Below the pieces are notes generated by a model that made no database searches, was not told the origin of the DNA, and saw only the letters and a program-made list of their open reading frames with translations. This document shows, one piece after another, positions 14,645-43,426 of a stretch of DNA of 64,000 nucleotides; the first letter of the stretch is position 1; every line of letters begins with the position of its first letter. Made by a program: the position numbers and the translations under genes. The stretch comes from an uncultured bacterium (GTDB lineage: Bacteria; Patescibacteriota; Gracilibacteria; Absconditabacterales; Absconditicoccaceae): assembly GCA_947170225.1 (NCBI GenBank), contig CAMVSQ010000003.1:1-64000 (forward strand), written 5' to 3'.

Positions 14645-17600
14645 CTAAATTTTTACTTCCATTTTTGCAAGTGGTTGTTTGATTTTTATGTTGTTTTTTG
14701 ATCTAATAAACAATCCCAATGTAATTATTTTTCTCACCAATGCAATTTCTTGTATCAGTTCTGGGTCAATGTACCTTTCAGACAAAATAGGGAAGTGCTT
14801 CAAATGTACAGAATCTACATCCATTTTTCATTTGTTTGTAAAGTTTTGCAATTGCAGATAGATATACTCACTGATAAACGGTGCAAATGGAGCTGCAATT
14901 TTTACAAATGTCTCCAAAACTTCAAATAGTGTGCTATATGCGGAAATTTTGTCTTCATCCATTCCACTTGCCCAAAATCTTCTTCTACTTCTCCTTATAT
15001 ACCAATTTGTCAGACTATCCACAAATCACATCATAGCTTTGGTAGCATTGTCCAAATGATATTCTTCCATTTCTTTTCGCACTTGAATACCAACTTCATT
15101 TAAACTAGCCAATATCCATCTATCTAAATCATTTGTGATTTTGTAGCTTGGCAATCTGATTATTTCTCATTTTAAAAGATTATTTTTCTTTCAATACAAA
15201 TCTTTCCACAATTCTACAAAATTTACATCATGTGAAACTATCAAAACATTATTTCCCTTTTCTTGACCCAAGATTTCATTGTAATATTGTGTAGTTTTTT
15301 CATATCATTCTTGCCACAATTTTTCATTTTCCACTATTTCAATATCTTTGTTTATATATTCTTTGTATATTTCTCTGATTCTTTCAGCTGTTTGTTTTGC
15401 TCTCTTGGCATGAGAAGTATAGATCTTATCCAAATTTAATCTCAAAATTTTTGATACAAATATTTCTTTTTCCATGCTTGCGATTCATTCAGCTGTCAGT
15501 TCGTCATCTAATTCAAATCATGTAGCAGCCGCATGTCTCATAAAGTATACATGTGTATCATCAGTCTTGAAATTATCTACTTTTGCATAAGTTTCAAAAA
15601 ATTTATATGCATTTGTCAGTGAAGAAGTGAAATCTTTGTATACTTGGTCTACTCATTTTTCTGCAAATCTCATTGGCTCAGCTTTTACTGCTGGAGATGA
15701 TAGCATATAAAGTCTATATGCATCTGCACCATATCTTTCAAACAATTCTTTTGGATCTGGGTAGTTGTTTAAACTCTTTGACATTTTGCGTCCATCTTCA
15801 GCCAAAATCAAACCATTTATCACTACATTATTATACGAATTTTTTTCCATCATAGCATTTCCCAGTACATGCATCACTCTAAATCGACCTCTAGTCTGAT
15901 CCAATCACTCCATGATCCAGTCTGCTGGATAAATCAGAGGTTTGATTGTCCTTGTTGTTCAGTCTTTCCTCCTGATGTATCATACTTGTCCAAATGGCAT
16001 AGCTCCAGATTCAAACCAGCAATCCATGACTTCAGGTATCCTGTGATAAACTTTTCAATCAATATTAAACCAATATTTGTCCACATGTGGTCTGTGCAAA
16101 TCCAATTCTTTACCAGTATCATTGTCAAAATAGTGGATCCTCATCCTTTGAGATACAGATCAATTCATATGTGGATAAAAATAATCTCTCCTACTGCAAT
16201 AATCAAAATTTCTAAAGAAATGTATAGCAGAAACTACAACTTCTCAATGTGCATAAGTAATAATCGTCTTTGTTTTAAACTTTTCATTTATATCTTTGAT
16301 AAATGATTCAACTCTCTGGAATATGTGGTCTACAGTTTCTCCATCTGGGAATAATTTTTCACTTGTAGGTACACTAGTCATATTCATACAATGGAATTCT
16401 ACTCATTGCATACTTGGATAATATGTCTCATGTACTCTCATATCCACGTATATTCACTCATGTAATTCAAATAATTGTTGATTGTCTGGATTTGTAGTAT
16501 AGTCAATCAAGCTACCATCATGATACATTGATTGAAATTTTTCTACTATCTCATTGTATTTTGGAGTAATTTCATCGATAATGCTTGCTCCAAATTTTTC
16601 AATCAAAAATGGTGTAGCTGTTTCGAGAGTTCTTTTTAATGGAGATAAAACAACTACAAATTCATTTCACGGTTTCAATTCATAATCCAAATTTTCCTTT
16701 ACAGTTTCTGCTCGTTCTTTTCATTTTTCAGTCAAAGTTCATTCTCATAGACAATCTCACTTATGAGCTACATTAAATTCAGTCTGTCCGTGTCTGATAA
16801 AAATATTTTTGGTCAAATTCTTTGATCCATTTATTGTACCTTGATAGATTTCATCAAGTGTTCAAATAGAAAGCCTATCTTCACTATCTGTATCATTTTG
16901 CCGGATAGGTATTGGAGATCATCGATATCTATTTCTTCCAAGATTCCAGTCTGGAGCAGAATCCAATACATCCAAAAATCTCTTTTTTACACTTTCTGGT
17001 ACAAATCATATTTCCTTTGCATTGCTTATATTGTGCTCTTTCAGTGTTGGTTCTTTGATAAACCAAGAGTCCATAGCTTTGGATATCAAAGCAGTGTGAC
17101 ACCTCCAGCAGTGTGGATACGAGTGGTTGTGCGATTGTAAAAGCACCAATTTTCATTCTTTTTTTAATCTATCGTTTATATCCTTATTTACTTCATAAAC
17201 TCTCTTTCATTTGTAGTCTGGTACTTCATCGGTAAATTCTCCATAATCATCTACTGGCAAAAATAATCGGTCTCTAGCAAATTCTCTAGGGAATATATTT
17301 GCAACCACTTCAAAGTCTTCAATTCCAAATGATGGGGCAATATGCACAATTCATGTACCATCTTCTGTACTAACATAATCTCCAAGTATCATTTGAAAAT
17401 ATCTATCCTTGTATTCATCAGGTATTTTGCTCTGATTTATGTACTCAAATAGTGGTTTGTAAAATGTTCAAGACAATTTTGATCATTTAATCCTATTTAT
17501 CAAAAGATAATCTTCACTATTTTTGTAATATTTTTTCAACAAAGCTTCTCCCAATACATAGTATTCGTGACTCTCTTTGTCGTATACCATGCAGTACCAA

Positions 17601-18787
17601 ATTTCAGGTCAAACTGCCAAAAAACTATTTGATGGCAAAGTCCATGGAGTAGTGGTCCAAGCTAAAGCATAAACAGGAGCATCAGGCTTGATTTGACCAG
17701 CAAAATTATTGTGATATGTATACAAATCATAAAATTGATTTATGATTTCATCTGCATCATCAATTATTGTATTTTCTATTTTTACTGCCATTCAAATTTT
17801 ATTTTCGCTTTCAATAATTTCGGCCCACTGCAAATGGCTGGTTTTCTCCGGTTCCATATTTTTTATTTCTCATTCCACTTCAGTCTCCACATAAATCAGA
17901 TTCCAGATATTTCATTTCAGTATCTCTTTAAATTCTCATAGTACTTTTGTATTTGTCACCTCAACTCCAAGCTCTTCCATTACTTCTTTGCTGACAGTTT
18001 TTTCTATACTATCTCATTTTTCCACTTTTCATCATGGAAATACATATTTTTGGCTTTTTGTATGATATCCCAACAAAATTTTTCATTCATGCTTGATCAA
18101 ACAGCAAACTACATTTACAGCACCATCATTTACTGTTTCATAATTATCTTTTTCAGCAAAAGCTTTGTTTGTTAGCTGAAATTTTACCGTAATTGCTGGA
18201 TCTTGTCTATCTTCGTATCATTCATTTACTTCACTATTTGACAAAGCAGTAGCACACGATGGACAGAACCACTGTACTTTGAATCATTTATAAACCAGAT
18301 TTTTGTTATACAAATTATCAAAAACATTGATTACAGACTCCATAAAATCCAAATTCATAGTCATGTAAGCATTTTTCATGTCTGCTCGTCTACCTATATG
18401 ATCCACAAACCAAGTCCATTCATCGCTGACATTACTTACATAATTTCTACATTCTTGAGTAAATTTTTCTATTCCAAGTTTTTCTTCTATGTCTCTTTTT
18501 CAATCGATTCCAAGTTGCTTTTCTACAGCTTTTTCTACAGGTAAACCGTGGCAATCTCGTCACCAATCTCTGATTACCTTGTATCATTTCATGCTTTTGT
18601 ATCTTCCTACCAAGTCTTTCATAACTCAGACCAATCCATGCCCAAAATGTGGAGTACCACTAGCAAATGGAGGTCCATCGTATGTAATGGCTTCTAATCT
18701 GTCTGATCTTTCGTCAATTGATCTCTGAAAAGTATTGTTTTCTTTCCAATAGTTGATTAAATTTTCCATCAATTCTTTTTGATTCAT
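14645..18787 (-). CDS. ileS: Isoleucyl-tRNA synthetase with inserted Nudix and two histidine-phosphatase domains
   Basis: This IleRS is 1380 residues long; the family is normally 900-1050. Class I core: [12 protein letters not shown] (H47-F-G-H50) and KMSKS at 1001-1005. The editing-domain threonine-rich motif [14 protein letters not shown] starts near residue 372, and [18 protein letters not shown] is present. Three extra modules interrupt it. (a) Residues about 215-330, before the TTTPW motif: a Nudix domain with box G253-K-V-E-K-G-D259 through K267-E-V-M-E-E-L-G-V275 (Asp and Lys replace the usual Glu and Arg). (b) About 660-885: a histidine-phosphatase domain, IRHGQTEFN (H666), [15 protein letters not shown] (H847), placed between the post-NRYRGSPIP segment and DLHRPHVD. 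(c) About 1080-1195, after KMSKS: a second one, FMRHAAATG (H1085), [15 protein letters not shown] (H1186). One frame throughout, no TAA/TAG. Confidence 0.95.
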
Positions 18788-19028: not shown

Positions 19029-20582
19029 ATGAAAGAATACCTAAAAATTCGCGAATCAATAATAAATACAGCACAATCAAATGAAAAAATAAATAAGACG
19101 ACAAATGATATAGTCCAAAACTTTGTGAATAATACCAAACTGGGTGGATTTTCCGAGCAAGATTATATCAATGCATGAAAGGAACTTCCACAAGAAAACA
19201 AGAATCTATCTGTCATGGATCTTTACAATACTCCAGAAATCAAAGATGATGATTTGAGTTTGTTGTCTTGATTTTTGTGATGATCCAAATTTGTTCGCAA
19301 AAATGTAGATGGAGAGCCATATATTACACATGAGTGATTTGTAAAACTAAATAATGTACTAGATATGGCATCCAAACATGCTAGGAGAAATTGACTTTGA
19401 GTTGCTTATTTTAGAAAATCATTTGGTAAAGATTGACTGGATATCATGGATTTTGTTTGAAAAGAGACAGAGAAAATAGACCAATCTGGAAATATTACAA
19501 AAATGGAAAGTAGTGGAGAATGAAAAATATATTTTCGTATAAAAACAAAGGAACAATACTTTGATTTTCTCGAAAAACTTACAGCTCCAAAAAATAATGA
19601 TCTTGCAAACAAAGAAAAAAATGGCTTTTTTCTAAAAAATGTATTGGCACTGTGATATTTGTGGAGAAATGAAGTCTATCTACAGAAAAGAAAATTATTT
19701 CAATATTTGATTACAGACCTTTTTGGTAAATTTTTTGATCATAAATTCAATGTACGAGTGGATACAGACAATCATGGAGACCATGGGCACAATATCACTG
19801 AAAGTTTTGATTGCACACTCTCTGGAAAAGAATTAAATGTAAAATTAAAATGAAATGTAAAGTCTGAAAAATCTACAGTAGACAAAATTATGAGAGAAAA
19901 AACAGCAAACGCCACCAATGATATCATCCGTTTTCAGCTTACTTTCAAAAATCATAAACAGATGGTGGATGGCCTGTATGCTTTTTTACAATTTTGTATG
20001 AATAATGATAGTCACATTTTTGATCATGAGCCATGAAATTTTTGAAATTTAAAAGGTATAGATAAATGATGACTAGAATCAGAAAATAAATATTATAGTG
20101 CACATATAGATTCTTTACCAGATGGTCAAATCAAAGATTTCATCAAGTGAATTGAATATAAAGTAAAAAACTGATCATCAAAAGATTACAAAGATGTAAA
20201 ACTTATAGTCCCTGTCAGACTAAAATGAGTTTTGTTTAATATAGAAGTCCAATTTCTTACACAAGACTATGGTCTAGACAATAATAGATGATATTCATCT
20301 CATGCAATACTAAAATGAGCAGAAAAAATTTGGACCTTGTGTAGACACAAAAAATTTGTCACAGAACCTGATATAAAAAAAATAGTACAAAACATCATAG
20401 TAGATAGCCCAGAATTGGTAGATCAATTGGCATCTGGAAACGAAAAAAGATTGTCTGATGAATTGTTTGACTATTATTTAAACAAATGCGAAAAAATCAA
20501 TATTCCATGACACAAAACTGTATATCTGTTTAAATGAGTAAAAGAGACATTGGACAATAATTCATTTTGGCCACATATTTAA
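19029..20582 (+). CDS. Unidentified 517-residue cytoplasmic protein (possible distant RelA/SpoT-like fold)
   Basis: There is no signal peptide or membrane segment. A central region reads KSEKSTVDKIMREKTANATN followed by DIIRFQLTF, then about 130 residues later IEVQFLTQDYGLDNNRGYSS and an Ala/Lys-rich stretch. That order loosely recalls the (p)ppGpp-synthetase fold: a Lys-rich loop, a D-I-I-x-F-R-like strand, and an E-V/I-Q-hydrophobic-T strand. The match is by eye and weak. TGA is used for Gly throughout. It has a strong promoter. The gene is followed directly by the truncated uvrB, so a rearrangement point lies just past its stop. Confidence 0.6.
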
Positions 20583-20757
20583 TTTTTTTTATACAAATAT
20601 CAGCTATTGATAATTTTTTGCAAAACATTATCATCAAGATACAAAGTGTATCCAAAACACAATTTTATTTGCACAAACAAAAATTTTGACCAATTCAAAT
20701 TTAAAAGATTTTTTGCAAAAAAAAGATGAAAATGTTTTGCCTTTCATCGATCACTTA

Positions 20758-21453
20758 ATGAAAAAATTGGACGAACATATTTCCAAGTGAGGTAGAGTCC
20801 TACTTTTGACATTGACAAAAAAATCTAGCGAAGAAATTACAAATTATTTAGTTTCTAAATGATACAAAGCGTACTATCTTCATAGTGAAATTGCCACAAT
20901 GGATCGTTGGGAGATTATCAAAAAATTGAAAACAGGAGAAATCGATATCATCGTTTGAGTAAATCTTTTGAGGGAATGAATCGACTTGCCAGAAGTTTCA
21001 CTACTTGCAATACTTGATGCTGATAGAGAATGATTCTTGCGTTCTACGACATCTTTGATTCAGATAATTGGTCGTGCTTCTAGAAATCCTGACAGTGAAG
21101 TAGTACTCTATGCAGATCAATTCACAGAATCTATGGTCAAAGCACTTCGAGAAACCTATCGCCGCAGAGAAATCCAAGATAAATTTAACAAAGAGCACTG
21201 AATCACTCCAAAAAAAGCTACTTCAAATGCAAAAGATTTGGAGTCAGTAAGGACAGATATGGACTTAAATCAACAATTTCAAGCTATGGCAAAATGAAAA
21301 GTCCAGGACAAAAAGCTCAAAAGAATGACCAAAAAAGAAAAAGATATGATTTCAAAAGATCTCAAAGCTCAAATGGATTTGGCTATCAAAGAATGGAGAT
21401 TTGAAGATGCAGCAGTCATCCGTGATCAAATCAAAGAGTTGGAAGGGGAGTAA
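20758..21453 (+). pseudogene. uvrB: N-terminally truncated UvrB (C-terminal helicase half and UVR motif only)
   Basis: The 231 residues from ATG 20758 match the C-terminal third of UvrB. They include [96 protein letters not shown], and a terminal UVR motif ending DAAVIRDQIKELEGE. The UvrA-binding region, Walker A helicase motif and beta-hairpin (about the first 420 residues of a normal UvrB) are missing. The frame upstream of 20758 runs open to about 20614 but no longer resembles UvrB. Either this is a relic or a stand-alone fragment that still interacts with UvrC through the UVR motif. A full-length copy may exist elsewhere. Confidence 0.85.
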
Positions 21454-28693: not shown

Positions 28694-31600
28694 TTAATAC
28701 TCAAGTAGATTTTTTATTTTAATTTTTACAGATCATATATTAGCGCCATTTGGATTTGTCCTAAAAGTATATATCACACTATTTGTCATGTTATCAAATC
28801 CATATTCTCCGTATAAAGTTGTATCTGTATATATTTGTCATATAGGCGAAACATATAGCAATACTTCTCCATTTCTTACTACGGCTTTTCATCCGTTAAA
28901 TTCTCCAAATCATTCATTTTCCAGTGGTACTACAGACGCATTATTTCAGTTTACATTCAAACTAACCAATTCTTTTCCAGAAAATATTACCCAAAACAAT
29001 GTTTTGTTTCATTCCATCACTTTGATTACAGGAATTTTTGGAGAGTAATCCAATTTTATGCTTATATTATTTTCAAAACCGGGAGTTATAGTAATTTTTC
29101 CACTTTCTGGATTTATTTTTGCTACTATATCTCCACTGGTAGAGTATAATCCAATATCATCACCCAAATCAAAATATCCACCATAAACATTTATCTGTTC
29201 AGCGGTAGTTCAAAAAGAGGAGATATATCTTCATCACACAGTTCCAGTTAAAATTTCCCATTTTTCATCATTTGATCTATCTCTCATAAACTGTACAAAT
29301 CCAGTATCAATATCCTGATCCATTTGGGCCACTATTGTCACAAAAGATTCACTATTTCAGACCGGAATTGCACTTGTACTTATAGGATTGTTTATGATAT
29401 TTCAGTTTAGATAGCTCAAATTTTGATTTCATTTCAAAATATTTGTGATTTGTATGTTTGGCACTTTGATTATCAGTCTTACATCAGATACATATTGATT
29501 TCCATCTATATCCACTCATCAAACATAAAATGTCAAATTTTTCTCTCCAGTAAAATATAGACCACTCAGCTCAATATAACCAGTTCTACTATTTATACCA
29601 CTTTCTCTAGCCAAAGTATTTCCTGCTTCATCAGCTATCCAAATTTCATTCAGAGCTACATTGTCTTCCCAATCTACCTGCAAAATATAATTTGTTCACA
29701 CATATCACTCCAGAGCAGATCACTCACTCACGATTTTGTCAGTAGCTGGTCTATACAATTTAATTTCAGGGCTTGGTCACTGCGTATCTGCTATTATTTG
29801 TGGTCCAGCCACTATTTGATTACTAGAGCTACTAGAAATTTTGTAAGTATTATCTACAAAATTCAGCGTATATATCTCACTATATTGCCAATTTCTAGGC
29901 AATTCTTCTACAGTCAAACTTATAGTATTGGCAGAGTCATTGTAGTACAAAAGATCAAATATCCTATTTCAAGTTCATATCCATCTTTCAGTATTATTTA
30001 GTGTTCATTCTTCCAGTTCCAGTTTTGTTCATGTCACTTCAGATCATTTAGGCAATACCAATACATATTTTTTATCAAAAAGGCTACTATTATTTCCCTG
30101 AGACAGCAAGATTTCACGATCATTAAATTGATCTACTCTGTGTATCATTTTTACCAAATATCCATCTACATTGTCTCACAAAATTTTGCTATTTAACCAA
30201 GAAACCTTGATAGTATCAAAAGTTTGCCCTGCATATTTAAAGTTTTTGACTTCTCGATTTGTATCCACTACTTTTACAAAAATAAATTTGCTAAACAATA
30301 CTCCTCAGTATCTTATCTTTACAAATCAATTTTCTGAATCAGATACCAAATCATCATAAGAATTTATTTTGTATACATAAAAGTTTGACGCATTTTCATA
30401 TTCAATATTTTCATAATTTGAATTTCATCATCTATATTTTACATAGATATTATTTTCATCCCACAAAATCAAATCAGAGCGACCATCCCCATTTATATCA
30501 GTCAACACAAATCTAGACTGAAATTTGTTTACATAATCATTATTTGCCAGCAAAAAACTACCTTCTTTTGTGTTCAAAGTATATCCATCAATATAATTTG
30601 AAATTTTTACATTACTATTGCTGTTTGTCATATTTGTACTACTATTTCATCATGCACTTCATCCAGCACTTTGAGCTAACAAAATTTTTGCACTATCACT
30701 ATCCATATCAAATAATTTTGCCGATAAGGTAATATCCCAAGAGTTGTCATTTACCAGAGAAATTTCATTGTCAGATACTGTAGCCAAAAATTTATCATAA
30801 TCATTTACTATCATATCAGCGATTTCCGAGTTGCTATTTTTGTAATTTTCCAACACAGTAGTATATCATTTTTCCACATTTTTTACAGCATCTATATTTG
30901 CCCCAATATGTCTATCCATAGCAATCAAAGACATAGATTCTTGAGCTCTATTTTTTATATCTTTGTTTGTTGCCCTTTGGTTGATTGCAGCCAAAGTATC
31001 GTGCAATATCCTAAAATTATTTTCATTTACATCAGGATCAAAATCTACATAAGATATAGGTTCTTCCACTTCTTTATACAGATTTTGTAGATTTTCAAAT
31101 CTCCTTTGCTTATCCAAAGTTTTTTTATCCTCAATTTCTTGTGCACCATCTTTTAGTTCAACATCCAAAATATTCAAACTTTCAAAATTTACATTTTGTC
31201 ATGCTTGTTCAATGTCACTGTTTATTTGATCCATCACTTGTTTTCCTTTGTTCAACAAAAGATTTTTCACTCCATCAAGTTCCTGTGATAGTGAATTATA
31301 AAGTCTTACCATCTCATTGTACGAATCAATCAATCATCAATATTTTCTGTTTAGCTCTTCAATTTCTGTTTGTAGACGTCTTATTTTTTCGTTGTTTTCT
31401 ACTATTTTTCCATTTAATCTATCTATTAGTTTTTGTGTATATTCAATTTTATCAGTCAGCAATTTTCTATCTATTTCAGTGCTAGCAGTGTTTAATTGAG
31501 CTCTATAGTCATTTAGTAGAGTAGTATTTTCTTGCAAATCTTTATTCCATTTTTCATTTTCGCTTTGCAAATTTTGGATTTGATCCCTTTTGCTTTCCAA

Positions 31601-33847
31601 TTCAGCTAAAACAGTTCCCAATCACTCAAATCAAGTTTCCAGTAATTTTTTGTATCTATCAAATCTTTGTTGCAATCCATTCAATCTATTTATGTCCTCG
31701 CTAGCTCAGACTCACTGACATTCAATAGAAAATATGTTGTTTACGCATGCTTGTAGATGATCAGTATATTCTTTGCTTATATTAGATACATAATTTGTAC
31801 CTACAGAAGCATAATCTGTCAATTTGTATGATACTCCATTTATCTCATTTACCACTCATTGCAAAAATGCATAAAAATCCTCAAAACTATATTGCAAATT
31901 TACATAAGTTTGCAAAGATAAATCAAATCATTTCAGCTTTACATCTCTAAACTGATTGGTCTGCAATAGGGCAGAAAATCCTGTAAACATATTTGCCAAT
32001 ATGCTAGGCATACCAGCACTTATAGTACTATTCCAGTCTGACAGTGTTTGATCAAATTGATCCCAGTATGCTACTTCGTAGTCTCTCTGAGTCATTTGCT
32101 CTACCTTTGCTTTGATAGAAGCTTCAGCAACTAATCCAAATTTTCATTTCACAATACAAAGGATTTTTCCAATGATTTCTGCGGCTTTTATCATAGTAGT
32201 TATTTCATTTGGTAGTCTAGGAATTTTTGGAGCAGGAGGCAACAAAGGTAATTCCATCTGCACACTAGGGATAAATGATGGTAAATCAGGCAAGACAGGA
32301 GGAGATGGGATTAATGGCAATCCTCACAAATTTCACATATTCAAGTTTAAATCTACCAATTTTAGTTGTGCTAAAATATCCAAACCAAATGCTAAAGTCT
32401 CATCCAAATTCAAAGACAAATCTATATCTGGAGGAGATGGGATATTTGGCAATTGAGGCAATGGTACAGCAATTGGATTAAATACAAAATTTGGCAACTT
32501 TATATCAGTCTCCAGATGTATTTCAGAAAAATCCAAGTATATGCTAGGTATCTTTGTCGGTGGAATCGGTATGACAGGCAAATCAATACCATTGCAGAGT
32601 ATTCCTAGCTTACATGTAAATTGGTCATAGTTATCATTTGTACAAGTGCTACAGTTTTCTGTCCAATCAGCAGACAAATCAATAATCAATTGGTATGTTT
32701 CCAGTGTGGTCATAAGCGTAATGATTGCATCTACATACTGAGAATATCTATTTGCATTGGTTTCCATCCACATAGATAGTGTTCACAGCACAGAATTTAC
32801 CAAACTAGAAATCTCTCCCAGATATCTATCTACTACATGTATCCACTCATATAGTTGCACTGGAAATTGCTTGTACATTTGTAGTGTTTCTATATTCTCT
32901 TTTACCGATCTCATCAAACTATCAGCGCTAGATTGTATATTCAAAAATCAATTTAGCATAGTATCAATAGTTCCATCCAAAAATATTTCTGAACAAGCAT
33001 TTCATACCACTTGGCTATCTTCTTTTATTTTTAGTCATTTAGTGCTTATAGCCTGTCAATTTTTTTTAATTGAAATTTTTGTTTTTCATGTGTTTATATT
33101 ATTTGATATCAAATCAAATCAAGATGTAAACATAGTCAAATCTGAAGTGCTTGGATCAAAATACAAGTACACATCAATTGGTATTACATTATTTACACTA
33201 TCAAAATATTTAGTATATACATAAAATCCTCAGTCTTGAGCTTCATATACTTTGTAATTTCACAGATCGCTCAAATTATATTTTTGCCTCAAATTTTGCA
33301 AAGAATCAATTTTTCACTGCAAATTTTCCAGCCTTGGACCATCTCAAATGCTTGATAGTATTTGTGAATCTGCTTGTCTGTATTGTTCTTTTAGACTTTC
33401 TATGGCTCTTTGTAGGTCACTGATTCAGTTTATATTTGTACTTCATCCACAAAATCATACCAGAGCTGTAAAAAAATTCTGCCAATCAGCCAAAATCTCA
33501 GTCTGTCTATTCATCCAGCTTTGGGACATACTAATATAAGAAGTAACATCTTCACTAGAAATCATAGGCACATCAATAGTGATATCTTGTGTGCTGATAT
33601 TTACTAGTGGAGTTTCGCTAAACAGTTCTTCCAGCTGTTCAAAAGGATTTGTATATTCCGACCAACTAGATACTTGGTCTCTACTCATCAAATTTTCCTG
33701 TCACCATGCATCCAATTGAGATAGTGCAGAATCATTAGCTTTACAGGTTTTTGTGCTACTGTCTCGTTTCAGACCTCTATTTTCACATTTTAGTTGCAAC
33801 GATGCTGGTGTATCTTCACAAAATCACGAAGAAGCATTCCAAACTCA
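28694..33847 (-). CDS. Giant surface protein, C-terminal reading frame (Ig-like and FG-GAP-like repeats)
   Basis: A 1717-codon frame from ATG 33847, in the same phase as the 3176-residue frame upstream but separated from it by a 48-bp stretch with three in-phase TAA codons. The N-terminus (MSWNASSGFCED) has no signal peptide. This suggests it is the continuation of the upstream protein: translating the gap one base out of phase gives a plausible bridge, TCENNKGV joining WNASSGFCED. Contents: Pro-rich linkers around 32.3-32.6 kb, a long coiled coil (about 31.3-31.7 kb, ESKRDQIQNLQSENEKW), an FG-GAP-like calcium motif DINGDGRSDLILWDENN near 30.49 kb, and beta-sandwich domains to the end. Probably extracellular. 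Either a separate gene or a frame-disrupted tail. Confidence 0.7.
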
Positions 33848-33895
33848 TTTATTATTTTCGCAAGTTTCCTTCTTTCAGTTTGTGGTCGATTGTAT

Positions 33896-36800
33896 ATTAT
33901 TTACTTTGCTTACAGGTGGCATTTTTCAGATAATTCATTCAAAATCTGGCCAAATTATGCTTATTTTGAAGTTTGTCAGATTGTTCATCACATATTTTAT
34001 CTGCTTGTCCAACCAAGATTTTACTACTTTTTCTATCAATCATTTTGCATTTGATCATTCAATTTTATTTTGAAAATTAGCACCCCCCTCCAATAATATT
34101 GCATCAATATCAAAAGAATTATCTTCTGTATAATAAGAACTAGTTTCGGGCTTCCTTTCTATGTTTATAAATCATCAAGCGAAACTACCATCAGGTACCG
34201 CTTTATAAAAATTTTGACTATTATTACTTGATGCACCAAGTACAAAAGGGCTACTAGATTCATTATTTCCTACATAGCAAGGGATATTTTGTTTACTACA
34301 TCATTTCAGCAATGTGTATTCATGAGGGATTTCAGTAGTTGCATTGAATCATAAGTTATTACTAGATCCTTCACCTCCACATGGTAAATGTACAGCAAAT
34401 ACTACACAGTTTCATACTATACTACCTACTGGATCTGGTATATTTGCTCATACATTGTATGGTCCAAAGCACAAAGCAATTCCCAAATCCAAAGTCAAAG
34501 TAGGCATCAAATACAGTCTAAATAGCGAATTCCAAGTTCATCCATAATTTCCCAAAAAGAATCCATCAGACGGTCATTTAAATGGGTATCCAAATATTCA
34601 AGGAGCAGGTATGTATCAAGCGATGGTAGGTCACCAGTTTCCAGGTATTGTTAGTACAGGCATTCATTTCCCCAAAGTCCTACTCAGAGGAGCTATTTCA
34701 TAGCATCCAAACAAATGATATTTTCATACTCACAAAAATGCTTGATTAAACGGTACAGGCAATCCACATCCACCTTGTCATCCCAATCCCAGAGTAGATA
34801 AATCAACTCAATTACACATTCATCATATCACTTTATCTATTTCTTGTACAGCATCACTTGTCAGACCATTTATTATTTCACTTCATATATTTACAGTATT
34901 AGAAACATTTAGTCACTGTGCTGATAGCATACCCCTTCGATCCATAGTTTCCACGAGACCAGCGAATCATCAGATTTGATCCCACAGTGCTTGAGCATCT
35001 TCACTGGCGGCACTACTTCACACACTACCAAAAACTTCGTCTTCAGCATTTGCTCCATTTTCTATACTCTGTAAATTGTAGTTATTTACAATTTTTGCCA
35101 AATCCATATATTTTTGACTATATTCTCTAGGTTCACTATTACTTGTTCAGTCGTTGAAAAATACAAACATAGAATCATTACATCCGTCTTGTGGCTGTAC
35201 GGTAATGTCTGGATATTCATCATAATCTAAATATCCAGCTAAACTATCTCCAGACATTATATATCATGCAAAATTGCTTCATGTCAATTTATTTATCTCA
35301 ATATCCATCACAGGACTATCATTGTATATCAGTCAGTAGCTAAATTTTATTCTATCTCATCTCCTCATATTTATATTGTCTATCATATATCTAGCATTGT
35401 CCAGATCCCGGTAGATATTTTCTGTCATGGATTCAATCTGTCATGAAGTGATATAACCCCTCTGTATATAAGAACTATCAAACCAAAAATTTTCAAAAGT
35501 CTTGTCATCATACTCAGACAGTGGGATAATCCAAGGACCAGAAATATTGTCAATAAATGTTCATCTAAAGCTTTCATTTGCCTGAATATACACAGTCACC
35601 CTTACCAAATCTCCATTTACCAAAGATCATGTATTATCTATTATTCCAGAGTCAATTGTATTATTATTTAAATCTTCGTAAGTTTTATAAACTTTTACAG
35701 GATCTTGTCCTGTCAGACACCCTATTTCTACATAGTCAACATCATTTGCACTTTCAATATCGGTTTCATACGCAGGTATTACTCCAAATCATGATTTTTT
35801 TAGCCTTTCATCTTGTTTATACAAATTTGTAGCCGCAGAAATATCAAAACCTCAAATTCAATCAAAAATTTGATTTATATTACCCAAGTTTATGTTTTCA
35901 AAATTGCTTGGATCCATCCCCACATCTTGTGCAGTAATTTCATCTCACTCATCTTGTCCAAGTCATCTCCAGCGGATCAGACTCTGATCCAAAATACGAC
36001 TATTGCTATCCACTTTGATTCCAAATTGATGTACTGTTTTTGAATTTTCTTCAATTCTTTCATACCAATTTTCATCACACATATATTTGTTTGTAGAAAG
36101 ATAATTTACATTACCATCACTTTCTCATCAGTAGAAAATTTTTATAAATCACAAACTATCGTTTGTCACTATATCCACAGCTCCATCCAGATCCATATCT
36201 TCCAAAAATATCTGATGAAGCCCAGAAATTTTTTCTGGATTGCTAGATATCTCTCATTTATTTACATTTATGTTTACACATACAGGATAACCATCTACAT
36301 CAAAAATTCACAAATTATTTTTGTAAACTCTCAATCATCCAGCTTCTGTCCATACTATCAGATCTTGATAACCATTTCCATCTACATCTCATACAGATAT
36401 ATCACTTATTCTATCAGCCAAAATTTTCAAAGCTCACAAATTTTGGAAAGGATTTGTTCATCCATAATTTTTCAAAATTTTTATAGTTCAATCCTTAAAT
36501 ACTACTATAATATCTTCCAATCAATCATTATTAAAATCAATATTTTTTACTTTCAGTATTTCTTTACCAGGTTCAGCATAAATTACTTCTCCAAGTCATA
36601 AATCAAATTCTGTATCTTTTTTCAGTGTACCATCTATATTGTAAATTCTGGCAGATTCATTGTCATTTATCCTTTTTAGTAGAGGATCTCAAATATTTAT
36701 CAGCAATTCAGAACCAAAAGGCAACGTAGCTTCTCATACGCTCATCCCTCATCCAAAATTTGTGATATTTTTAAATTTATCAGTAAATCATATTCACAAA

Positions 36801-39800
36801 GTAGAGTTGTGGCTATCTTGTATAGATTTGTATCCAAAAGAGTTGCTTGGCAATTGAGATTCTATTTCATAAAATCCTATTCAAAGTTCATTACTAGATC
36901 CATTTATCCAAATTTGAGAAATTCAATATTCATCACTAAAAGAATTTAGATCCACTGTAAATCAATCTCTGTCATCTGCAGCGATTATCACTTTTCAGAC
37001 AAAAGTCCCAGCAAAATACATATTCCATACTTGATATCTAGCAATGTTATCTTCTCCAAGTGATATAGTCAAATTTTGATCAAATGTAAAATCTCTAGTA
37101 TCAAAAACCTTGGAGTTATTTATATATATTGCTCAATTTCTCACATCATTTTCTTGGATTATACTATCAATTTGTTCAGGTACATAAAACAAAATATTTT
37201 TGTTCTTGTTTGGTCCAGCCATCCTTGCTGATATATATTGTTCCAAGACATTTTCACTTACATTCACTTTTTCTATTCTAAAAGAATCTGCAGATACCAC
37301 GATATTTCATACAGAATTTATATCAAATACAAATCATCCACTCAGCATCAGATTTATATCTTTGTTTGCCAAATTTTGTATCTGCAATCAATTGTCTACC
37401 ACTATAGGAAAGTTTTTTATATTTTCCAAATTTAATAGCTGTGTGGTCACAGTGATCAGTTTGTCAGAATTTTTTATCAAATTTTCAGAATATTTATCAT
37501 TTTCAGACATGTATCACCACTGATTTCATCGGTCATTTCCAAACAAATTTAGATACATCACATTCAAATTTTTTTCTGGCAACATATTTTCTTGTACAGT
37601 TATGGATAGTGTTGCAGGCTTTTGCTGATCCAAAGATACTTGATTTGCATTTATATGAGCATAAATATGTCACAGTCATCATTTATCATTTGCTACAATA
37701 TCAAAATCCAAATTACCTCCATCTACTTGTATGTTTCCGGCAGACGATAGAGACAATTTATTATTTGCAGATCTCAATATTACAGAAACTGGACTATTTA
37801 CCATATTACCCCAATTATCAAAAATTTTCAAATTTCCAGCCATTGATGCATTTGTGTTCAAAGTATCATGTTCTGCAGTTAGTCATACCACTTTTGGTGT
37901 AGCATGGCTTATATTTATAGGTATCTGTATATCTTCAGTTCATGGCATAGAAATATAAATAATATCATCTCCAGCTACAAAATTTGGCAATAAGTACACA
38001 GTACACCTTCATCCAGATAGCTCAAAATAATTTGTCTTGCTAAAACGATTTTGTATCACATCCAAAATTTGTCAGTTTAAATTTTTTGTCACAGTTCTTG
38101 ATGATATTGTTCATGGAGTTAGACGATGATTTTTTGTTTTTACAGATACAGTTCATTCCATATTTATAGTATTCCCATTTCTGTCTACCAATCTCAATTC
38201 CAATTTTGGCAATGTTCCAGTATTTGCTTGAACTAAATCATAATTATCTACTATTGTATAAATATTTTCATCAGGCAATTTGATGTCCAGCTGTGTATTT
38301 ACATCATTTCATTCGCTTATTTGATTGTTGCCAGAATAAACATCAATTCTTCATTTTTTTACATTTACCATGGCTCTGGCTTTTACACCATTCACTCAGG
38401 CAATTTCTCCAGATACTTGTACCATTATAGTTTGTCCATCTAGGTTTCCACCAGTAGCATCCAGCTCAAAATTAGATTTTACAAAATTGGAAAATTTAAT
38501 GCTTCCAGAACTGACGCCATTCAAAACTACTTTACCACTAGAGCTAGATGTCTCAAATCTCTGTGAAATTAGCTCTCATATATTATTTCCATATTTATCA
38601 GTTCACACAACCTTAAAAGGTATGCTAGCTCATTCCAGTACTGTATTTTTTTCCATTTGGATTGAAATATTTGCTACTTCTCCAGGCACTACATTTAGTC
38701 TCACACTATTTCTCACACAATTTTGGACATTTTGAGTATTGGGCAAACACATATAAAAGATAAGTATATTCATTCACTCTATAGGATTGTCTATTTCAAT
38801 AGTAATATCTTTTTGATTGTATGGATCAAATATTACTTTTCATGTATTATAAGCACCACTTCATACACTGATATTGTTTGAAATTATATTATCTCCATCC
38901 AAAAGTCTGATTTTGCTTTCTCATACATTTACTACATGAAATTCTACATTTCATAGCTGTGTAGAAGATGAAATTTCAATTTCTCCAGTAGGATTATCGG
39001 CAGATATACTAGTTTTTTTTGCTTTAATAGTAGTATATAACAGTATTTTTTGCAATTTTGCAGCATCTCATGGATTTGTCAAATCCATATTTTCTATTAC
39101 TTCGTTGTTTATTTCGCTTGTATCTAGCAATTTCATCTGCTGTACATATCCAAGTCATATATCTTCATAGTCTCATACATTAAATATATTTCCCAAATTT
39201 TGCCAAAATCAGGTAGAATTATCCAAAGCAAACGGAAATGTCACCTTAAATTCAAATGGTTTTTGTCTGATTGCTTCCCATCGGCATTTCATAGCCTCCC
39301 ACCAAGGAGAAGAAAAGCTTCCATCAGAAAAATCAAATAACAATACTCATCACTGTTCTGGTATATTACATTCCAGTATTAGCTGTTGCCCAAGTAATGT
39401 ATTTTCTTCGTCAGTTCATACGGGAGTTTCATAGCTCTGAGACAGATTTAGCATAGTATTTACGATAGGAGGAGTAGTCTCATAAGAGATATAATCATTT
39501 CAGTCAGAATTGATAAAAGCTACTTCATATCCATTTTCACGATAATCAGGAGTCAAAAAATTTCATTTATTATTATCCTTGGTGAGATAATTTTTCAATA
39601 TGTATGAAATTTTTTCATTCATATCAAAATCAGTCCTTTGATTGTCAAAATCTTGTTGTATAGTTTCTCATATAGTTTTGTTTTGCCGTGCAATATTTTG
39701 ATAATATAGCATATCGGCTATGAATCATATAGGGTCCGCTTGAGCCAATTCTTCACCAGAAAAATAAACACTATTTCTTATCCTATATTCCAGCTGATCT

Positions 39801-42800
39801 ACCAAATAATTTTCGTCAAATAATCTATATGGACGAGTTCAATTGTTTACTGCTTGTGGCGATGCCAAAGGATCTAGTCTAGCCAATGTATTGTATGCAC
39901 TGCTATTTGCATTATAATAAGCTTCGCGTTTTTGCACTTGTTCACGCAGATATTTATTATATTGTGTTGCTACACCTTTTAGATAGTCTCTGATTGCTTC
40001 AGCGATTTCTCCAGTAGATTTGAGCGTCAAAACTCATTCACTACTATCTCCAGAAAAAATTTCAGCTTTGTATATGTCTGGATATATAAAAGTCACTTTG
40101 TCTCATCATATACCTTTAAATGTCATATATCTAGGAGAGTCAATTGGTCTGTCAGAAGTGGTCATATTCATTCATGCGACATTTAGCATTAGATCTTCAT
40201 TTCAAGTTCATGGTATAGTGCCTATTGTATTACTATAAACTTCCCTAAATATAGTAGCGTCATCTATTTGTGTAAATATTTGACTTATCAATAATTTTCT
40301 AAAAATATTGTTTATCACGCTGTACCCTCCAGATGGTTCTCACTCATCATTAAATTCTTCAACTTTTAAATTATTTATGCCATTTTTTTCATCGTTTAGA
40401 TATTCCGTATAAGTATTATAATTGTAAATCAAATCATCTAGTGTATCACACAAGTCTTTATACTTTGTTTCACATCATGATCATTGCAAAAAATTACTAA
40501 TATTTTCCTTTTTTTCAGCCAATTTATCCACGACATCCAAAGATACAAAAGAAATTCCTCAAATTCAAAATTGTGATCAAATTTCACCTATAGTCTGATA
40601 AACCACAAATGCTTCGGCAACAATAGTTTTTAGTAAATAATAGTTATTTAGCATTGAAGTTATTGTTCATGCCAAATTTTCTTTCCGTCTATTTAAAAAG
40701 ATTAAATCCCGTCAGTTTACTATAAATTTTGTCTTTTCATTTTCTACAAAGTCAATTATTCAATAAAATAATCATCATCACATTTCCACAAATCAACTCA
40801 ACTCTAGAACTAGATCTTGAACTTCTCCAATTTTACCAGATAGATTTTCAATATCATTTATATCAAAAACATCTTGCCAAGTAGTAGCTAATGCATTAAT
40901 TTGTCAAGTATTGTAATTCTCCAGTGAATTTTCATCAAAATCTATTAAAGTTTCAAATCATTCGTTTATCTCATCTATTTTATCTTTGATATACAATAAA
41001 TTGTTTTTTAGTGATCATGTATTATTTCATACTATCTCATCAATACTTCCAGATATGGTGTCAATAAAATGAGATAGCTCATCATAAAATTGTTTTACAT
41101 GAGAATGATTATCTTGAAAAATCTTGTATGAAATTCCATTTAGTTCAGTTTCGCTTACAGAATCATTTTTTACCCTAGAATCCAGAGTCTTATATGTATA
41201 GATTTCTCCCGCTCATCTACAAGAAGCATCACCTCAAGCATTTGTTTTACTTATCTTTATTATATCTCACTCTCTTGTAGCACTTGAGTTGTATTTTTCA
41301 AAATAATTTATATCACTAGCTCTTATTACATTTTTGTTGATCCATCAGTTTATACTATTGCCATTAAAAGTAGGTATTTTGTTTGTAAACTTTACTTCAT
41401 AATCCATAGAAGAATCATATCCAAATCAATAAGTAGCAGGAGCTTTTTTTTGGGGATTTCATGCATAAAATTTTGGCCATCTAGTATTGGGGGAGAATCT
41501 CCTCAATATTAAACTAGAATACTTACTTATAGATTCAAAACTATTTGATTCATATTCTGGGGTAGAAACATCTAAGGCAAGACTTCCTGCTATATCAAAA
41601 ATTGGACTAGTAGCTCCAGTATAGGTATATCCCGATTTCCAAGAAAAATTTGTTCAATTTATATCCAAATTTAGTGGAGAAGCTCCTCACCATATCCTTA
41701 TTGCATATTCTTGTGGGGTTTCACATCATCATTGATCTCAGCCATCACTTAAATCGCATCAACGACCATTTGTATTAGATATTGCCCGTCTTCTCTTGAT
41801 ACATATACCTAAAAATTTTTTCACACAAGTTACATCCCAATTTTCCATTTTTGCAGTTTTATTTCCACTATATATCTCAAATTCTTCCACAGAGTTATTG
41901 TAGTTGTATCATCTATTTGCATCTACTTGAGTAGCAAAAATTTCATAAGATCATCATATAGATTTTTTGTTTAAGTCCAATCCAGATACATCAGTAGACG
42001 GATTTTGTGAATTTTGTATATCCTGTATTGTTAATCAGTCAATTCATATATAGTTTCTAAAAGTTCATCTATATGTACTGGCGTCTTCCATAGACAATAG
42101 ATATTGGGCATTTTCTCCAAAAAGATAATTTTCATAAGCGTCATAAACCTCCCAAACACATTTTCAGAGCCATCTAGATTTTCATTTATAATTTAAATAT
42201 GTCAAAGGTATAACCTCATTCATCCAGTATTTTTCATCATCCACTTTATTGTCCACAATTTCTTCCAATGCATTATTTATCATAATCAAAAAAGGTTCTG
42301 CTCATCAATTCATCCTCAGTACCGTTTCATCAGCGATTTCAGTTTTTATATAGTGAGTATCTAGGGCGTTTGTATATATAGCATTTCCATCCGATCAAGT
42401 ACGACTTTCTGTCCATCTGTTTGCAGTTTCTATATTGTTTGCTATTGTTTTCAAAAACTTTTGTCAAAAAAGAGAGGAATATTTAGACAAATATCCGTTG
42501 TCTAGTAATGCCTTTATTTGCATTGTTGGTGTGTTTGTTTCTTGTGTTATCAGAGACAAATTTCCCAAATCAAATCAAGTAGATCACAAATCAGCATAAA
42601 TATCATTTAACTCGTTCATTATCCCCTCAATTTCACTGTTGCGTTGTCATTGTAATACTTTTATCATCAGATCATTGTATCTGTGATACCCCAAATCTTC
42701 CGAAAAAATAAAATTATTGAGATAAAAATTTAATCAGTTTTCATTAAAATATTTTTTGTTTCACACAAAATCATCATACCAGATAGCTTTTCATATATAG

Positions 42801-43426
42801 CTACTAGGATTACGCCAATATTGTTTCAGCTTGTTAAAATAATCACCATAATCATCCATATTTTCTCCAAAATTTATCATTCAATGCCAAATTTCTGCTT
42901 GTCAATTTGGATTGTTGTTGTAAACAAAATATTTCGTCTCATCATCCCAGATAAATTTTTGTTCTTCAAAATCCACATACGGATATATTGTAGGGTATAT
43001 ATATCAATTTTGATTTACTACGGGTAGTGGGATATCTCAAATTAAAATTACTCAAATAAGCCTAGATGGTTCTCAACTAATTCAATCAAAATATATGTTT
43101 TCCAAAAGTTGTGAAATATTTTTTGCAGAAAAATTTTCTACATTAATTGGGAAAACTAGGGCTTTGCTATTGGATATGGCTGTGTATTTATTATTTCCAT
43201 CTCATTGTATATATTTTGTAGCGTACCGCTGCACATCATCTTTTATATTATCATAAATTTTGTCATTTACTATGATAGCAACTATATTTGTGTAGTCTAT
43301 CTGATCTTCACTATTTCAAGCAGCATAAACCGTATTACTTGCAAAAAATGCAGATTGAAAAAAATTAGTCAATAAATAAACCCCCAATACAATTGCTATA
43401 AATATTTTTTTTGTTTTGTTTCTCAT
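33896..43426 (-). CDS. Giant exported surface protein, N-terminal reading frame (3176 residues)
   Basis: A signal peptide (MRNKTKKIFIAIVLGVYLLT, then about 17 residues ending VYAAG) opens a single uninterrupted frame to TAA at 33896-33898. I read it codon by codon and found no other TAA/TAG. Visible parts: an N-terminal region rich in Trp/Tyr/Asn; helical stretches near 40.4-41.2 kb; Ig-like (Big/invasin-type) beta domains about 37.1-39.0 kb, for example FKVVGTDKYGNNIGELI; FG-GAP/VCBS-type calcium motifs DVDGNGYQDLIVW and DMDLDGAVDIVTND near 36.2-36.4 kb. Such composition fits a secreted adhesin. Joined with the next frame the product would approach 4,910 residues. It heads an operon with two small exported proteins. 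Confidence 0.8.

Follow-up and report, generated by a model that had tools for sequence, protein, structure and literature searches.

An isoleucyl-tRNA synthetase with one Nudix and two histidine phosphatase domains inserted in its chain and a C-terminal domain encoded by a separate gene

The window, the whole 64,000-nucleotide stretch of DNA that was analyzed, contains a single open frame on the minus strand at 14645-18787, which runs from an ATG start to a TAG stop under translation table 25 and encodes 1380 aa. The frame is open only with TGA read as glycine, which is the case at 44 codons, and no such frame exists at this position under table 11. An earlier note, made from the letters alone, had described a 1380-residue isoleucyl-tRNA synthetase (IleRS) with three hydrolase-like modules inserted in one frame, and the ORF reading agrees with it. 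The protein, called P0001 below, has the following features.

14645..18787, minus strand: IleRS coding sequence with 3 inserted domains, 1380 aa, code 25, from ORF reading, Pfam and NCBIfam
18638..18649, minus strand: HIGH-type motif HFGH, residues 47-50
17675..18145, minus strand: insert 1, a Nudix domain with a C-terminal extension, residues 215-371, in the CP1 editing region (yeast IleRS 212-219)
17963..18037, minus strand: Nudix box, residues 251-275, with Glu 268, 271 and 272 conserved in 31/31 proteins
17639..17656, minus strand: editing-domain motif TTTPWT, residues 378-383
16133..16807, minus strand: insert 2, histidine phosphatase HP1, residues 661-885, in CP3 (yeast IleRS 498), with R665, H666, R719, E817 and H847
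15773..15787, minus strand: KMSKS motif, residues 1001-1005
15149..15559, minus strand: insert 3, SixA-like histidine phosphatase HP2, residues 1077-1213, between the catalytic and anticodon-binding domains, with R1084, H1085 and H1186
14666..15124, minus strand: anticodon-binding domain PF08264, residues 1222-1374, with the chain stopping 6 residues further on

P0001 is the sole full IleRS in its genome (G000, from a small-celled Patescibacterium, 0.95 Mb, 94% complete). It scores 751.4 bits against the ileS model TIGR00392, above the cut-off of 621.4. Pfam reports four families in the protein over the gathering score: PF00133 (1.3e-103), PF08264 (7.4e-32), PF00300 (2.2e-22, in three stretches) and PF00293 (6.7e-14; 52.5 bits against a cut-off of 21.1). 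The earlier note had proposed an HMM search for the last two, and both passed, which confirms the identities and positions that it gave for one Nudix and two histidine phosphatase domains. The residues it named (H666, H847, H1085, H1186, TTTPWT at 378, KMSKS at 1001 and a Nudix box at 251-275) were exact. A GTGIVHIAP motif is present at residue 477.

The insert sites were mapped on yeast IleRS by alignment, with domain limits taken from PMC7955072. The synthetase parts of P0001 are complete as far as the anticodon-binding domain, and the chain stops near yeast IleRS 855. Structure prediction had also been proposed, and an AlphaFold2 model of residues 1-1200 has a pLDDT of 85.7 (about 80-96 within the inserts) and a core that matches IleRS structures. 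The best PDB and Foldseek matches are the yeast, Candida and Priestia IleRS2 enzymes. P0001 has the complete catalytic, editing and anticodon-binding parts of the type 2, or eukaryote-like, IleRS (TIGR00392; PDB 7d5c, 8wnd, 8c8v, 1ile), from which it differs by three inserted enzyme domains and by a C-terminal domain that is encoded by another gene. Judging from its sequence, P0001 is probably a functional IleRS, present in one copy, in which whole enzymes are docked on the surface loops.

Insert 1 has a Nudix box that resembles that of hydrolases of the MutT and CTP pyrophosphohydrolase type (PF00293; 2rrk, 1mut), and a profile of the Nudix inserts from the clade described below matches structures of these enzymes (2.4e-14). 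Unlike MutT-type enzymes, the clade inserts carry a C-terminal extension. P0001 departs from the consensus GX5EX7REUXEEXGU at two residues, with Asp (D259) in place of the first Glu and Lys (K267) in place of the Arg. Both positions vary within the clade, where the first Glu is found in 18/31 proteins and the Arg in 19/31, and one relative has Phe at position 259. The three later glutamates are invariant.

Insert 2 shares the RHG motif, the second His, the SPxxR Arg and the catalytic Glu with branch 1 of the histidine phosphatases (PF00300; PhoE, CobC, phosphoserine phosphatase 1, SixA), and insert 3 has an RHx motif, an Arg and the second His. In contrast to the branch 1 enzymes, the phosphatases here are embedded in a synthetase, and HP1 has an additional helical segment of about 60 residues. 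Modeled alone, HP1 gives a pLDDT of 92.8 and a pTM of 0.91, and its fold is confirmed as that of a histidine phosphatase. The 50 PDB matches listed for this model are all histidine phosphatases or phosphoglycerate mutases, and Foldseek matches it to PhoE at 2.3e-8. The R/H/R/E/H set of HP1 is kept in at least 27/28 clade proteins. The earlier note's reading of retained catalytic residues in the inserts was right. HP1 diverges quickly: P0001 and its nearest relative are 34% identical in this domain and 78% identical in the core. HP2 lies where the anticodon-binding part begins (yeast IleRS 667-685) and has a further Arg, R1129. The SixA model TIGR00249 matches it at residues 1079-1202 with 1.5e-11, which is under the model's own cut-off, and a profile of the clade HP2 domains finds phosphoserine phosphatase (1e-9) and SixA (4e-8) in the PDB.

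The IleRS of relatives were surveyed. The Nudix, HP1 and HP2 domains are all present in 26 complete proteins within the family of 49 genomes, one of them in a genome that consists of a single contig (G042). On a tree of the synthetase core, the proteins with a Nudix domain, HP2 and a detached C-terminal domain form one clade. The dN/dS values are 0.00-0.31 for the inserts and 0.03-0.08 for the core, which indicates purifying selection on the inserts. The inserts evolve faster than the core. Chance, an assembly chimera and a frameshift artefact, each of which would have explained the insertions away, are ruled out by this selection and by the recurrence of the layout in 26 independent genomes. 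The three-insert layout that the earlier note described is thus real. Its implied uniqueness did not hold, since the layout is common to a whole clade and IleRS with a histidine phosphatase are widespread in the phylum.

The phosphatases have been lost in parts of the clade. HP1 is intact throughout except in L043, where it is dead, and in four members of genus g9 placed beside it (L042, L044-L046), where it is deleted. The active site of HP2 is intact in 22/30 clade proteins and the domain is dead or shortened in the other 8; in L014, L016-L018 and L025 the active site is lost and the domain is also shortened. Thus 5 of the 30 proteins have lost HP1, 8 have lost the HP2 active site and none has lost both. 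The absence of double losses is not significant (P about 0.18, with relatedness ignored), so a strict need for one live phosphatase is suggested at most. In 11/49 genomes, including that of P0001, the only PF00300 matches lie inside IleRS. Separately, genus g4 (G003, G006, G007, G010, G011) has a free-standing histidine phosphatase gene 2-5 kb from ileS.

The chain of P0001 stops at KQPL and lacks the C-terminal domain that usually follows, DUF5915 (PF19302), a point that the earlier note overlooked. All clade proteins with the Nudix domain and HP2 lack this domain, and in insert-poor members of the family it directly follows QPL in the same chain. A genome search found it elsewhere.

G000:C6:12448-12963 (L220 1441-2094): stand-alone DUF5915 gene

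By eye, the neighbors of this gene are a PEP-synthase-like gene on one side and RecX- and YebC-like genes on the other. DUF5915 is a stand-alone gene across the clade, far from ileS, and the distance is 0.5 Mb in the single-contig genome. Each stand-alone protein starts at a Met of its own, a few residues ahead of a conserved IIKEEVNVKE, the segment that follows the QPL linker in the fused proteins. Together with a single origin of the detachment on the core tree, this start indicates that the split is clean and arose once. Simple loss of the C-terminal domain is ruled out, as the domain is present as a separate gene. At G025:C33:64310-65728, a stand-alone DUF5915 gene is directly followed by a UMPH-1 gene, an enzyme type that also occurs in one of the interrupted ileS genes described below.

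Since DUF5915 is missing from the chain and is encoded elsewhere, the clade IleRS is probably a two-subunit enzyme, made of the 1380-aa protein and the stand-alone DUF5915 protein. Synthetases split between genes, such as the alpha/beta LeuRS of Aquifex, and genes split by mobile endonucleases, such as phage nrdA, are known. The clade resembles the Aquifex case in that one synthetase would come from two separate genes; compared to that and other split synthetases, it is here the C-terminal domain that is detached. No description of a split IleRS was found in a literature search. A C-terminally truncated yeast IleRS was reported to be unable to charge tRNA-Ile, with a truncation that is different and more distal (PMC7955072). 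By analogy, a working partnership of the IleRS main chain with the DUF5915 protein is plausible.

Two family members have an ileS gene that is interrupted by whole genes. In both G035 and G037 the break in the gene comes after AMPFGQEHY(V/L)G, and the second half restarts at its own ATG. The gap in G035 (L037 2790-3620) holds a UMPH-1 pyrimidine 5'-nucleotidase gene; HP1 is gone and zero PF00300 matches are left in that genome. In G037 the gap (L048 3387-5176) holds a DUF559 gene and a DUF4357 gene, the latter possibly GIY-YIG. Rfam gave no match for a self-splicing intron in either genome, and with whole genes in the gaps and a fresh ATG, a self-splicing intron is ruled out.

Class-wide searches, domain scans and local models showed that IleRS of 1200-1750 aa occur in many families of the class, including families whose ileS reads under table 11. 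The inserts occupy fixed sites: site A in CP1 holds Nudix or GNAT domains, site B in CP3 and site C hold histidine phosphatases, site D holds a histidine phosphatase or a serine hydrolase, and site E holds DUF559. Histidine phosphatases thus recur at three sites (B, C and D), with up to three copies in one protein (L131), and the set RHG, R, E, E, H is invariant in ten site-B inserts across the class. Outside the class, a profile of the phosphatase plus its flank gave contiguous matches to IleRS with a histidine phosphatase in at least 39 genomes. In other Patescibacteria, valyl-tRNA synthetases (ValRS) also carry a histidine phosphatase, at a position homologous to that of HP1 (L180, L181, L186, L189-L192). 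L186 also has a serine hydrolase, as may L192, for which the local match is weaker. Of the long synthetase ORFs that were examined from the phylum sample, only those of IleRS and ValRS carry histidine phosphatases. Three further proteins from other Patescibacteria (L182, L194, L183) were read by eye as DedA-like or MFS-like membrane proteins with a histidine phosphatase fused to the C-terminus.

The core tree of IleRS requires 9 changes for the phosphatase at site B, 7 at site C and 6 at site D, and 7 for the Nudix domain. In the phosphatase tree, at least 6 changes are needed for site B under the starred branches, and the ValRS phosphatases fall in several places. Both trees therefore call for repeated gains or losses. 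A single origin of the phosphatase inserts in all lineages is not supported by the phosphatase tree, in which bootstrap values are unsettled and branches are long.

Other domains use the same gene. L055, from the same family as P0001, has a GNAT acetyltransferase (residues 217-395) at the site that the Nudix domain occupies in P0001, and L184 has a GNAT domain further along together with a histidine phosphatase. L099 (1748 aa) combines a Nudix domain, a serine hydrolase, a DUF559 nuclease, a histidine phosphatase and DUF5915 in one chain, and in L129 an IS200-like Y1 transposase is inserted in frame into the CP1 editing region (residues 288-559). An IleRS with an inserted enzyme is already known from the NCBIfam model NF040702, ileS_w_GNAT. 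P0001 resembles that family in this respect, but it reaches 281 bits where the cut-off is 1999, and no acetyltransferase (GNAT) match was obtained. A literature search found no relevant description of IleRS with Nudix, histidine phosphatase or domain insertions in CPR. P0001 is a genuine IleRS that stands out by an unusual and recurrent habit of insertion and by a C-terminal domain that has become detached.

IleRS and ValRS are textbook proofreading synthetases, and their domain plan has been regarded as nearly fixed. The repeated in-frame uptake of one phosphatase family into the same loops of two paralogous synthetases, with active sites conserved, points either to an unknown reaction tied to the charging of Ile and Val or to the storage of enzymes inside essential proteins, which would then be a general strategy of streamlined genomes. 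The split C-terminal domain would make for a natural two-subunit IleRS.

Because their active sites are conserved, the Nudix and histidine phosphatase domains are most likely working phosphohydrolases, an activity that we infer from the residues they retain. We lean toward the view that they are tethered phosphohydrolases kept for catalysis, with small nucleotides or phosphorylated compounds as their presumed substrates. In this layout the editing domain has a MutT-like Nudix hydrolase at its mouth, CP3 holds a branch-1 phosphatase of the active type, and the SixA-like phosphatase separates the catalytic from the anticodon-binding domain. In the picture that we favor, the inserts would work close to the synthetase, on by-products of adenylation or on analogues of them, with at least one working phosphatase required. 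A specific coupling of the inserts to aminoacylation by-products or proofreading is a more tentative proposal. The roles suggested in the earlier note, such as clean-up of aminoacyl-adenylates or AppppA, extended proofreading or regulation of charging, are likewise possible. Phosphohydrolases turn up repeatedly in both IleRS and ValRS, one phosphatase or both remain intact, and a nucleotidase is present where the phosphatases are gone (G035); these three observations lean toward a link with the synthetase. Extended to the phylum, the proposal is that the IleRS and ValRS of Patescibacteria are synthetases with built-in phosphohydrolases for their own products, misactivated adenylates or inhibitor analogues. 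We regard this as possible but less than an even bet. If true, it would add an extra layer of quality control or protection beside the editing domain, with retention so strict that a lost phosphatase is replaced, and in the P0001 clade it would be combined with a detached C-terminal subunit.

A tethered phosphohydrolase agrees with the conserved active sites, the recurrence in IleRS and ValRS and the complementary pattern of phosphatase loss. A platform that is permissive for insertions agrees just as well with the diversity of the other inserts (nuclease, transposase, GNAT, serine hydrolase) and with the 8/30 proteins in which HP2 has decayed. On the latter explanation, insertions are simply tolerated in the loops of IleRS and ValRS, and general-purpose enzymes are carried along by a protein that is essential and well expressed in a streamlined genome, where their activity serves the cell and is unrelated to tRNA-Ile charging. 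We consider this a conceivable, if doubtful, alternative. It accounts for the many unrelated domain types at few sites and for the genomes whose only histidine phosphatase domains lie within IleRS. The mixed inserts, the fast evolution relative to the core and the partial decay of the phosphatases also fit such a carrier and argue against a link with the synthetase: the DUF559 nuclease, the transposase, GNAT and the serine hydrolase are without an obvious connection to aminoacylation. The fusions to DedA-like and MFS-like proteins suggest that the phosphatase domain is generally promiscuous, which counts against a tethered role and for a carrier; the Asp at position 259 of the Nudix box also counts against a tethered role. 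A carrier does not readily explain why phosphohydrolases, both histidine phosphatase and Nudix, predominate among the inserts and arose separately more than once in the two synthetases, or why the other long synthetase ORFs examined from the phylum sample have no histidine phosphatase insert.

Another explanation concerns how the domains arrived. Insertion driven by endonucleases or transposases, with ileS as a hot spot and with domains that were once cargo and stay in frame owing to the essential role of the gene, would agree with the in-frame transposase of L129, the DUF559 domain of L099 and the split of G037 by DUF559 and DUF4357 exactly where its sister G035 has UMPH-1. Most inserts have no mobility gene, several sites are used, and Pfam found no intein (Hint) or homing-endonuclease domain in P0001. 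Such an origin would also account for arrival and not for retained active sites, and we consider this explanation improbable.

A structural role, in which the inserts are folded but catalytically idle, either stabilizing the fold or not cleanly removable, would suit the lineages with a lost HP2 active site and a shortened domain, as well as the dead HP1 of L043 right beside lineages that deleted HP1. It is hard to reconcile with the Nudix glutamates in 31/31 proteins, the HP1 residues in at least 27/28, the class-wide invariant phosphatase set and the purifying selection, and we give it little credence. Detoxification of synthetase-directed nucleotide analogues, as self-protection against Trojan-horse or adenylate-mimic inhibitors for which the microcin C immunity enzymes offer a lead, is similarly remote: GNAT, serine hydrolase, phosphatase and Nudix domains are enzyme types that could inactivate such compounds, but no biosynthetic or inhibitor link was found, and DUF559 and the transposase do not fit.

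The tethered phosphohydrolase remains our preferred reading of the three inserts in P0001. Elsewhere in the window, a 517-aa ORF at 19029-20582 without a Pfam match lies upstream of a plus-strand ORF of 255 aa (20686-21453) that corresponds to the C-terminal part of UvrB only, and the minus strand has a very large ORF at 28694-43426, which encodes 4910 aa.
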